From an uncultured Pelagibacteraceae bacterium (GTDB lineage Bacteria; Pseudomonadota; Alphaproteobacteria; Pelagibacterales; Pelagibacteraceae), in the NCBI GenBank assembly GCA_902628635.1, contig CACONQ010000003.1, positions 62,001-126,000 on the forward strand: a stretch of DNA of 64,000 nt, read 5' to 3'. Below are positions 6,436-10,428 of this stretch, in pieces (within the stretch, counting starts at the first letter, position 1; every line of letters begins with the position of its first letter). The notes beneath the pieces are model-generated. The model searched no databases. It worked only from the letters and a program-made list of their open reading frames with translations, and was not told where the DNA came from. A program made the translations under genes and the position numbers.

Positions 6436-7152
6436 TCATTTACAAATTTTTTTAAATTTTTTTATAACTTTATTAATTCCAACAAAAATTGACTCTCCTA
6501 TTATAAAATGGCCGATATTAAATTCCTTAATTTCTTTTAGTTTAGATAAAATTTTTGCAGTTTTATAATCAAGTCCATGACCAGCATGCACCTCAAGTCC
6601 AATCGCATTTGCATATTTGCAACATGCAATTATATTTTTTAAATCTTTTTGATATTTTTTTTTGGATTTTATTTTTCTTGAGATTGTGCCTGTATGGATT
6701 TCAATACATTTAGCTCCAATTATTTTAGATAATTTAATATCTTGAATTTTTGGATTTATAAATAAACTTGTTCTTATTTTTTTTCTATTTAAAATATTAA
6801 TGTTTGCTTTTAATGCCTGAAAATTTTTTTTAAGATTAAGCCCTCCCTCTGTTGTAATTTCTATTCTTTTTTCTGGAACTATACATACATATGAAGGTTT
6901 TGCCTTTAGAGCAATATTCAACATTTTTTTATTACAAGCCATCTCGAGATTGATAGGTATTGATTTAAATTTAGATAATATTTTGAGATCACTATCTTTG
7001 ATATGACGTCGATCTTCTCTTAAATGTATTGTTATTAAATCAGCTCCGTTTTTCATCACAAATTTTGCTGCATTTAAAATATTTGGATGGTCTTCACCTC
7101 TTGCATTCCTTAAGGTTGCTACATGATCAATATTTACACCAAGACGTATCAT
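6436..7152 (-). CDS. pdxJ: Pyridoxine 5'-phosphate synthase
   Basis: RLGVNIDHVATLRNARGEDHPN, ITIHLREDRRHI, VHAGHGLDY. Confidence 0.97.
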   Translation of the reverse strand: MIRLGVNIDHVATLRNARGEDHPNILNAAKFVMKNGADLITIHLREDRRHIKDSDLKILSKFKSIPINLEMACNKKMLNIALKAKPSYVCIVPEKRIEITTEGGLNLKKNFQALKANINILNRKKIRTSLFINPKIQDIKLSKIIGAKCIEIHTGTISRKIKSKKKYQKDLKNIIACCKYANAIGLEVHAGHGLDYKTAKILSKLKEIKEFNIGHFIIGESIFVGINKVIKKFKKICK

Positions 7153-7739
7153 TTTAAATTTCTACTTCCCGGTCTTGTTATTGGAATTTTTTTGAGAAAA
7201 GGAGGTATATTTTTTTTTTTGTATGTTGGAATGTTAATTTTAATTTGTGATACGATTTTTTTATTTTTTATTTTTAAAGTTTTTTTCTCTGATCGATCTA
7301 TAATACAAGCAAAACCTATATTGCTAGATTTAAATTTTTTAATTAATTTTGTGCATTCCAAACTGGATTTGCCTGTCGTTATTACATCCTCAACTATTAA
7401 AACTTTTGACTTAGGTTTAATTGAAAAACCTCTTCTTAATTGAAACTTTTTATTTACTCTTTCACAAAAGATTGTTTCTTTATTTAACAATCTACCTATT
7501 TCATATCCGATAACTATACCACCCATCGCTGGAGATAATATAATGTCTATATTCTTAAATTCTTTTCTTATTTTTTTTGCTAAAGAGAGACATATTTTTG
7601 AAGCTAAACTGGGTTTGCTCAATAGTTTTGCACATTGCACATACTTTGATGAGTGTAGACCTGAAGATAGTACAAAATGACCTTCCAAAAGAGCTCTAGT
7701 TTTTTTTAAAACCGCCAAAGAGTCTTTTGATGAAAGCAT
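7149..7739 (-). CDS. pyrE: Orotate phosphoribosyltransferase
   Basis: EGHFVLSSGLHSSKYVQ and VLIVEDVITTGKSS (PRPP site). Confidence 0.95.
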   Translation of the reverse strand: MLSSKDSLAVLKKTRALLEGHFVLSSGLHSSKYVQCAKLLSKPSLASKICLSLAKKIRKEFKNIDIILSPAMGGIVIGYEIGRLLNKETIFCERVNKKFQLRRGFSIKPKSKVLIVEDVITTGKSSLECTKLIKKFKSSNIGFACIIDRSEKKTLKIKNKKIVSQIKINIPTYKKKNIPPFLKKIPITRPGSRNLK

Positions 7740-9441
7740 ATTTTTTATTTTTATGTCTTATAATTTTAAAGTTATATTCTTTTTGTTTTAACTCACTAAT
7801 AAGTTTTGTAAAGTTTTTCAAATCATGAATAATAAGATTAAATCTAAAATTTATAGTTTTTTTAGTTTTTTCTACCATCTCTACGCTGGAAATATTTACA
7901 TTATTTATACCTATCATAGTGGTAACATCTCCTAATTTTCCAGGCTGATCAGGTAATGATATCCATAGTGTTGTATTGTATTTTTTAGATTTAGATAATT
8001 TAGAATTCTCTCTATATTGCCAATACCTTCTGATTGCTGCACGCGCCTTTCCCGTTTTAGTCAAGGATAACCAATGAAGTGAGGGTGAAACTTTTTTTGA
8101 TGTAATTATCTTCACCACGTCTCCATTTCTTAATATTGATTGTAAGGGTGACTCTTTACCGTTTATTTCTGATCCAATTGCTGTATCACCAACTTGTGTA
8201 TGAACAGCATAAGCAAAATCTATTGGCGTAGCATTTTTAGGTAATTTTATAACCGATCCTTTTGGAGTAAAACAAAATACATTTTCTTGGAACATTTGTA
8301 ATTTAGTGTATTCATAAAAATCTTCTGGATTTTCATTTTTCTCAATTATCTCTACCAAATCAGCTAACCAGTCATATTCTTTCCATGTTAATGAATTAAA
8401 TTTTTCAGATGACTTGTATTTCCAATGAGATGCTATTCCCCTTTGAGCAAATTCATGCATTTGCATTGTTCTTAGCTGAATTTCTATAGGTCTTTTATTT
8501 GGCCCTATTATTGCAGTATGTAAAGATTGATATTTATTTATTTTTGGAGAAGAAATATAATCTTTAAATCTTCCCGGAATACAATTCCATTTGTTATGAA
8601 ATATCCCAAGTGATTTATAACATGAAGAAATATCGTTTAAAATTATTCTAAAACCCATAATGTCAGTAATTTGCTCAAGAGATATTCTTTTGCTTTGCAT
8701 TTTTCTCCAAAGAGAAAAAGGAGTTTTTTCTCTTCCATAAATAGTTGCTGATAAGTCATTTTCATTTAATAGTTTAGTAAATTCATCTGCAACGGAATTA
8801 AAACTTATTAAGTTATTTTCCTTTATTTTATCAAGTCGATCTTTGATTAGTTTTCTAGCTTTAGGATTAAGAACTTCAAATGAAAGATCCTCCAATTCAT
8901 CCCTTATTCTATTCATACCCATTCTATCTGCTAAGGGAGAATATATTTCCATAGTTTCTCTTGCAATTCTCTCTTTTTTTTCTTGTTTATCAATTGAATG
9001 AATTGTTCGCATGTTGTGAAGTCTGTCAGCAATTTTTACAAGTAATACTCTAATATCTTTTGAAGTTGCAATGATTAATTTTCTAAAATTCTCAGCTCTT
9101 GAATTTGCTTTAGCTTGATTTTCTAACTCAGAAATTTTAGTTACACCCTCAACAAGATCAGCAACTTCTTGACCAAATTCCTGTTTAATAGTTTGATAAG
9201 TAGCATGCGTGTCCTCTATTGTGTCATGAAGTAGTCCAGTAGCTATAGTTGCACTATCTAATTTTAACTCTGTTAATATATTAGCCACAGCAACTGGATG
9301 TATAACATAAGGGTCGCCTGATTGTCGTTTTTGATTTTCATGAGCCTTTACTGCAAAATTATATGCCTTATCCAAAGTTTCAGGATTCAAAAACTTATTG
9401 TATGATTTTACTTTATTTATTAAATCATTTGATTTTAACAT
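7696..9441 (-). CDS. spoT: Bifunctional (p)ppGpp synthetase/hydrolase (RSH family), short C-terminus
   Basis: HD domain (LLHDTIEDT), synthetase (GRFKDYISSPKINKYQSLHT), TGS (CFTPKGSVIKLPKNATPIDFAYAVHT), ACT. Confidence 0.95.
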   Translation of the reverse strand: MLKSNDLINKVKSYNKFLNPETLDKAYNFAVKAHENQKRQSGDPYVIHPVAVANILTELKLDSATIATGLLHDTIEDTHATYQTIKQEFGQEVADLVEGVTKISELENQAKANSRAENFRKLIIATSKDIRVLLVKIADRLHNMRTIHSIDKQEKKERIARETMEIYSPLADRMGMNRIRDELEDLSFEVLNPKARKLIKDRLDKIKENNLISFNSVADEFTKLLNENDLSATIYGREKTPFSLWRKMQSKRISLEQITDIMGFRIILNDISSCYKSLGIFHNKWNCIPGRFKDYISSPKINKYQSLHTAIIGPNKRPIEIQLRTMQMHEFAQRGIASHWKYKSSEKFNSLTWKEYDWLADLVEIIEKNENPEDFYEYTKLQMFQENVFCFTPKGSVIKLPKNATPIDFAYAVHTQVGDTAIGSEINGKESPLQSILRNGDVVKIITSKKVSPSLHWLSLTKTGKARAAIRRYWQYRENSKLSKSKKYNTTLWISLPDQPGKLGDVTTMIGINNVNISSVEMVEKTKKTINFRFNLIIHDLKNFTKLISELKQKEYNFKIIRHKNKKYAFIKRLFGGFKKN

Positions 9442-9461: not shown

Positions 9462-9977
9462 TTATTCAACTGTAATAGATCTTAAGTCAATCGTGTCAAT
9501 TTGCTTTAATAATTGGGATATATTTAACTTGTATTTGGGATGTTTCCATTTTTTTGATATCTCATAAAGTGGAATTAAAACAAAATTCCTTTTATGTAAT
9601 CTTGGATGTGGAATAATTATTTTATCACCTTCGCAATCTAATTTTAAACATTTATGGTCATAATCTAATATGTCTATATCGCATTCTCTTGGAGAGTTTT
9701 TTTCAGAGATTTTTCTACCTAATTTTTTTTCAATTTTCTTTATAAAATAAAATAGATTTAAAGGTGTTAAATTAGTTTTAATTTTGAGAACAATATTTAA
9801 ATATTCTGGTTTTTTGGGGTCAGGCCATGATTTAGTTTTATAAAAATTTGAAGATTTCTCGATCATTAAATTATTTTTTTCTTGAAGAAGCGATTTAGCT
9901 TTATTTATATTATTTTTTTTATTTCCTAAATTTGATCCAATACCTAAAAAAACAGTATTAGCTTGTTTTTCTAACAT
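9462..9977 (-). CDS. folK: 2-amino-4-hydroxy-6-hydroxymethyldihydropteridine pyrophosphokinase
   Basis: [45 protein letters not shown]; start set at internal Met ([16 protein letters not shown]), the longer ORF runs into smpB. Confidence 0.92.
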
Positions 9978-10428
9978 ATCTAGCTTTATCTCTCTGCCAA
10001 TCTTTATTTTTTTTTGCTTGTCTTTTATCGTATTGTTTTTTTCCTTTTGCAACGGCTATTTCGATTTTTGCCTTTCCTTTTTTAAAATAAATTTTAGTGG
10101 GTATTATTGTGAAACCTTCTCTGTTGATCTTCCCAATAAGTTTATTAATTTCTCTTTTGTTTAATAAAAGTTTTCTATCATCTGTTGGATTATGATTTGA
10201 ATAGCTTGCATTTTTATATAATGGAATATGTGAATTCATAAGATAAATTTCACCACGTCTTTCAATTGCATATGAATCAGCAATATTAATTTTGCCAGAT
10301 CTGATAGATTTTATTTCAGATCCTTTTAAAACAATTCCAGCCTCGTAAACGCTTTCAAAGAAATAATTAAAACTTGCTTTTCTATTAATTGAAATTATCT
10401 TTAAACCAACACTGGTTTTTTTTTTCAT
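9958..10428 (-). CDS. smpB: SsrA-binding protein
   Basis: [26 protein letters not shown] and C-terminal [21 protein letters not shown]. Confidence 0.97.

Follow-up and report, generated by a model that had tools for sequence, protein, structure and literature searches.

A shortened Rel without helical and zinc-finger domains in Pelagibacteraceae (SAR11)

The sole Rel/SpoT protein of a genome from the Pelagibacteraceae, which belong to SAR11, the most abundant bacteria in the ocean, is 581 amino acids long and lacks the helical and zinc-finger (CC) domains between TGS and ACT. To our knowledge, the domain plan of long RSH proteins is close to universal, and it is the ZFD that couples synthesis of the starvation signal ppGpp to stalled ribosomes. 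We propose, with a probability of roughly 0.6, that the SAR11 Rel is a bifunctional enzyme that has been uncoupled from starved-ribosome sensing and operates in a SpoT-like manner, with its balance set via TGS and ACT and by non-ribosomal inputs. It may be argued on sound grounds that its mode of sensing differs from that of canonical Rel proteins.

Within the window, i.e. the entire 64,000 nucleotide stretch of DNA that was analysed, the rel/spoT open reading frame occupies positions 7696 to 9441 on the minus strand. The original prediction gave the correct coordinates but left the strand unstated, and a plus-strand reading of the same interval contains 48 stops. The encoded protein is by prediction a bifunctional RSH with a short CTD and the order HD-SYNTH-TGS-ACT, and it matches TIGR00691 spoT_relA above the cut-off (611 bits). 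Its score against the SpoT equivalog model NF008303 is 502, with a cut-off of 947, and the tree places it with the alphaproteobacterial Rel proteins. Upstream of rel lies folK (9462 to 10052, minus strand), the start codon of which is uncertain: the frame contains approximately 30 additional N-terminal residues that overlap smpB, and the true start is probably located further downstream. Downstream lies pyrE (7149 to 7739, minus strand), which overlaps rel by 44 nucleotides. The basic C-terminal tail of Rel (residues 568 to 581; 7699 to 7740, minus strand) falls within this overlap. The overlap comprises about 44 nucleotides in most members of genera g1, g8 and g9, is shorter in g6 and reaches from 0 to about 10 nucleotides in g5 and g7, and a long basic tail is present in g1, g8 and g9 only, i.e. 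only where the overlap is long. The idea that the tail is a functional element is weakened by this finding, because its length tracks the length of the overlap.

Pfam searches identified an HD_4 domain, corresponding to the ppGpp hydrolase (residues 26 to 176; 8914 to 9366; 6e-48), a RelA_SpoT (SYNTH) domain (236 to 346; 8404 to 8736; 1.8e-39), a TGS domain (389 to 447; 8101 to 8277; 1.6e-19) and an ACT_4 domain (485 to 553; 3.8e-10), all on the minus strand. HD and SYNTH were also supported by alignment to 1vj7, and by combining Pfam with an AF2 model the ACT (RRM) domain was assigned to residues 485 to 561 (7759 to 7989, minus strand), which bears out the domain composition proposed originally. 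The model was built on a 30-sequence alignment and has a mean pLDDT of 80.7. It arranges TGS, a single helix (residues 464 to 480; 8002 to 8052, minus strand), which is what remains of the beginning of the helical domain, a low-confidence five-residue linker (480 to 484; 7990 to 8004, minus strand) and ACT (488 to 561) in immediate succession. Thus, the claim that TGS passes straight into ACT holds, with one helix and the linker in between. Both the model and the alignments with other alphaproteobacteria, including the sister family of the same order, place the missing helical and ZFD/RIS module of about 140 residues at this linker. The ACT domain adopts a β-α-β-β-α-β fold with a pLDDT of about 90, and the predicted structure leaves no space for a concealed helical/ZFD region between the TGS helix and ACT.

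The RelA_AH_RIS family (PF19296) was not matched by hmmscan in the 581-residue Rel or in three other Pelagibacteraceae proteins. In the same scan, a full-length protein of the sister family (9.3e-16) and another alphaproteobacterial Rel (1.6e-36) were detected, and the absence is therefore not a failure of sensitivity. The CC...C pattern of the ZFD is conserved in the sister family and in other alphaproteobacteria, but the entire region is missing from the Pelagibacteraceae alignment. A hidden helical/ZFD region is thus ruled out by Pfam, alignment and AF2 structure, and the proposed loss of both domains stands. The SAR11 Rel still possesses the HD and SYNTH half and the C-terminal TGS and ACT domains by which long RSHs are recognized, but it lacks the ZFD whose conserved Cys pair and Arg, as binders of the A-site finger, mark a ribosome-associated stringent factor. 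It also departs from the full six-domain plan, including the helical and CC/ZFD domains, which is usual for long RSHs but not strictly defining, as rare exceptions are listed in Atkinson 2011 (PMC3153485).

With the whole model as a query, the best Foldseek matches were Rel, RelA and SpoT structures, and the ACT fold resembles both the amino-acid-binding ACT domains of Tyr-bound TyrA and Ser-bound SerA and those of RSHs. The Pelagibacteraceae ACT has diverged from other Rel ACT domains (28% to the sister family and 23% to other alphaproteobacteria). Replacement of the original domain by a foreign ACT is not favoured, because ACT_4 outscores the generic ACT model and the domain end aligns with Rel ACT domains, although the high divergence has to be considered here.

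The distribution of the short form was analysed by rel searches in 60 relatives and subsequently in 298 genomes of the order. Named records identify the family of the window as Pelagibacteraceae, and the attribution to SAR11 is correct. In Pelagibacteraceae, the matches are single and continuous over Rel, except for a few genomes with a second match, which corresponds to partial genes or an extra HD-only reading frame. In the sister family, the match is split at query residues 481 and 485 with about 140 residues in between, and the reading frames encode 708 to 714 amino acids. The length of Rel was 566 to 586 amino acids in all 151 Pelagibacteraceae proteins measured (138 from the genus set of the window and 13 from five other genera, i.e. 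six genera in total), and none was longer. Five proteins of the sister family comprised 707 to 712 residues and 27 proteins from other alphaproteobacteria 707 to 742. The shortening is thus common to every Pelagibacteraceae Rel measured, and the objection named in the original prediction, a deletion not shared by relatives, fails. Across the class, sampled with 144 genomes, almost all RSHs were found in frames of about 700 amino acids or more. No rel was detected in 9 of the 150 genomes of the order that are at least 90% complete, which is consistent with incompleteness.

The gene order folK-rel-pyrE is common to both families. In a tree of the HD-SYNTH-TGS part, the Pelagibacteraceae are monophyletic (100/100) and group with the sister family (99/99), and the deletion is present on both sides of the deepest split within Pelagibacteraceae. 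Based on locus order and tree, the simplest account is a single in-place, in-frame deletion in the ancestor of the family, which removed the helical and ZFD/RIS (CC) regions. Other reduced alphaproteobacterial genomes show independent ZFD losses: the RSHs of G453 (locus L249) and G433 (locus L250), each the sole RSH of a 1.0 to 1.5 Mb genome, lost RIS/ZFD but kept the AH part, and these are therefore deletions different from that in SAR11. The 546-residue RSH of genome G343 was discarded as a further example, because its assembly is fragmented and the gene lies close to where a short contig ends.

All nine HD residues inspected (R44, H53, H77, D78, E81, D82, D144, N148 and T151 in RelSeq numbering) are identical in the SAR11 Rel, and in SYNTH the residues D260, Y304 and E320 (RelSeq D264, Y308 and E323) are invariant in 30 aligned proteins. 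The RxKD motif is of the bifunctional type and not ExDD, with RFKD in the window protein, KFKD in several relatives and SFKD in the sister family. Given these intact active-site residues, the SAR11 Rel is predicted to act as both (p)ppGpp synthetase and hydrolase. In the regulatory half, H414 of TGS, which corresponds to the tRNA-CCA-contacting H420 of B. subtilis, and N516 of ACT, which corresponds to N685 of B. subtilis and N651 of R. capsulatus, are likewise invariant among the 30 RSHs aligned; since both are common to all of them, they are diagnostic of no single input. G501 of ACT is also invariant, and the PG turn of this domain is changed to AG in genera g5-g7. Pairwise dN/dS, determined by the Nei-Gojobori method for 113 non-identical coding sequences from the genus of the window, was 0.006 for TGS, 0.006 for ACT, 0.011 for SYNTH and 0.014 for HD, values that are to be read relative to each other rather than as absolute numbers because the genes are AT-rich and the pairs non-independent. 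Such low values reflect strong purifying selection on both active sites, TGS and ACT, and they indicate that the enzyme and its shortened regulatory half are in use.

One RelA_SpoT domain was found in each SAR11 genome examined, and a compensating small synthetase was rejected, as no second SYNTH domain was present in the genomes checked. The only exception is G282, a Pelagibacteraceae genome of genus g10 that is 86% complete, in which no RelA_SpoT domain was found; either the unassembled remainder of the genome holds the gene or ppGpp synthesis has been lost from this genus. A Pelagibacteraceae genome of genus g7 (G162) contains a short HD reading frame (locus L159, C1:854614-854895; 154-residue frame) that resembles a small alarmone hydrolase. 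Searches of Pelagibacteraceae genomes with PF19296 did not reveal a detached AH-RIS gene but only a sub-threshold remnant of 12 to 19 residues at the retained helix, and supply of the helical/ZFD module in trans was rejected for the genomes searched. On the output side, every SAR11 genome examined encodes omega and a DksA homologue. SAR11 omega (loci L193-L219) keeps a MAR N-terminus in the sequences read, but NRF is replaced by SPY/NQY and the C-terminus is extended into a long acidic tail. As the MAR motif and the DksA homologue are present, ppGpp could still reach RNA polymerase, and a ppGpp output side is plausible in SAR11. In both families rpoZ is located away from rel, which it adjoins in most other alphaproteobacteria checked. 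For EIIA-Ntr, the hallmark of a PTS-Ntr-controlled Rsh, PF00359 gave no match above cut-off in 15 Pelagibacteraceae and 4 sister-family genomes, and it was found in 7 of 9 other alphaproteobacteria. In Caulobacter, phosphorylated EIIA-Ntr inhibits the hydrolase activity of SpoT (PMC4848567).

On the ribosome, ZFD and RRM/ACT of Rel/RelA touch the A-site finger of the 23S rRNA, and TGS inspects the CCA end of the tRNA (PMC7058999). The original prediction had assigned contacts with both ribosome and tRNA to the missing regions; this is correct for the ribosome, but the CCA contact belongs to TGS, which is retained. The ZFD recruits the enzyme, and its substitution disrupts 70S binding and is by itself sufficient to counter ribosome-dependent activity in E. 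coli RelA and in B. subtilis Rel lacking RRM (PMC7058999). When both RRM and ZFD are removed from B. subtilis Rel, hydrolysis is retained, but synthesis is weak and toxicity slight (PMC7058999). A further role of the CTD, seen in the full-length protein, is to stabilise its hydrolase-on state (PMC13376610). Extrapolating from these findings for RelA of E. coli and Rel of B. subtilis, the ancestral deletion would have stripped the module that docks Rel on the A-site finger, and canonical recruitment to, and activation by, starved ribosomes would no longer occur. The SAR11 enzyme would then mainly hydrolyse (p)ppGpp, with a low or weak basal synthesis as in SpoT, while TGS and ACT may act allosterically on the catalytic half to set the balance of synthesis and hydrolysis together with non-ribosomal inputs. 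Weak contacts with ribosome or tRNA are possible, since the TGS His and ACT, the second A-site-finger contact, are retained. The likeliest non-ribosomal input is, speculatively, a small molecule that is bound directly by ACT, possibly a branched-chain amino acid.

In its most specific version, this explanation turns the ACT domain into a direct metabolite sensor that binds a branched-chain or other amino acid, sets the hydrolase and replaces ribosomal amino-acid sensing. Hydrolysis by R. capsulatus Rel is reportedly stimulated by branched-chain amino acids via N651, the equivalent of N516, as relayed in PMC7058999. The strong constraint on ACT, its likeness to amino-acid-bound ACT domains and the absence of EIIA-Ntr, the known regulator of SpoT hydrolysis in Caulobacter, point in the same direction. 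However, long RSHs in general share the Asn, the PG turn is not preserved in genera g5-g7, and branched-chain amino acids, leucine among them, had no effect on hydrolysis by B. subtilis Rel (PMC7058999). Because amino-acid binding is reported for the R. capsulatus ACT but did not regulate the B. subtilis enzyme, it is only a candidate input, and we regard the sensor reading as tentative and rather doubtful. The same reserve applies to the bolder statement that the stringent response of the Pelagibacteraceae is ribosome-blind and reads the nutrient state via a ligand-binding ACT instead of uncharged tRNA, as a fixed ancestral trait.

Alternatively, the SAR11 Rel could still be activated by the ribosome on a shorter route, in which TGS reads the CCA end of deacyl-tRNA, ACT alone contacts the A-site finger (PMC7058999) and the helical/ZFD lever is dispensable in SAR11 cells. 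The invariant H414 and the strong constraint on TGS agree with this possibility, but the His occurs in every RSH aligned and is hence unspecific, and the effect of ZFD substitutions alone speaks against it, which makes it unlikely. Slightly less likely still is an unregulated housekeeping enzyme, in which fixed rates of synthesis and hydrolysis hold a basal ppGpp level and regulation has decayed under streamlining. A review describes gene expression in oligotrophs as largely constitutive and SAR11 as devoid of growth control of ribosome synthesis (PMC11102524). Yet, decayed regulators should drift, whereas TGS and ACT are constrained at least as much as the catalytic domains, and in the portion of the source available, ribosomal-protein and RNA-polymerase mRNAs of P. 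ubique were strongly down relative to exponential phase (PMC5069961). That the segment is missing from this genome only through faulty assembly or sequencing is extremely improbable, because rel is 100% identical in two further assemblies (AG-453-G21 and AG-892-O03) and the length class is fixed across the 151 proteins and six genera, among them named records from single cells and MAGs, which excludes chance or assembly error.

If the SAR11 Rel is indeed uncoupled, the family-wide loss of the ZFD in a sole RSH would represent a natural case in which evolution parts a ppGpp enzyme from ribosomal sensing. The loss also offers a concrete molecular candidate to account for the weak growth-rate control that has been reported for SAR11 ribosome synthesis, and the protein may serve as a natural minimal enzyme for studying the non-ribosomal inputs of Rel in isolation.

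The architecture itself is known but rare. Atkinson 2011 (PMC3153485) lists a few long RSHs with missing domains, including the SpoT proteins of the Pasteurellaceae Haemophilus ducreyi and Actinobacillus pleuropneumoniae, in which, as in SAR11, the helical and CC domains are deleted internally and TGS and ACT are kept. Different from SAR11, where Rel is the only RSH, gammaproteobacterial SpoT is normally accompanied by RelA. Outside the class, genome G736 encodes a 568-residue SpoT-like RSH (locus L247, 1018-2724, plus strand) with the same TGS-helix-to-ACT junction, in addition to a 742-residue RelA-like RSH and a 197-residue SYNTH-only reading frame; it represents a convergent loss. Among the matches listed for 398 Pseudomonadota genomes sampled, this was the sole non-SAR11 match continuous over TGS-ACT, and others may exist. 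The SAR11 architecture was not described in the literature available, and Atkinson 2011 (PMC3153485), the supplements of which may list SAR11, makes no mention of Pelagibacter in its main text. A large free-living family in which this form has become fixed as the sole RSH thus appears to be undescribed.

The canonical alphaproteobacterial Rel/Rsh proteins, such as Caulobacter SpoT, Brucella Rsh and those of the sister family and about 120 other families, are orthologous to the SAR11 Rel, with about 50% identity over HD-SYNTH-TGS, and a single bifunctional RSH is usual there too. The sister family shares the pyrE/folK neighbourhood with SAR11. In contrast to the Pelagibacteraceae, the canonical proteins keep the helical and ZFD regions (PF19296), and SAR11 further differs from them by the absence of EIIA-Ntr and by an rpoZ that is no longer located beside rel. 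The SAR11 Rel can also be likened to the B. subtilis Rel truncations, in which ZFD loss leaves an enzyme that still hydrolyses, synthesises weakly and is almost without toxicity (PMC7058999). These variants, however, were engineered from the C-terminus by removing RRM or RRM and ZFD, whereas the SAR11 protein keeps its ACT domain behind TGS.
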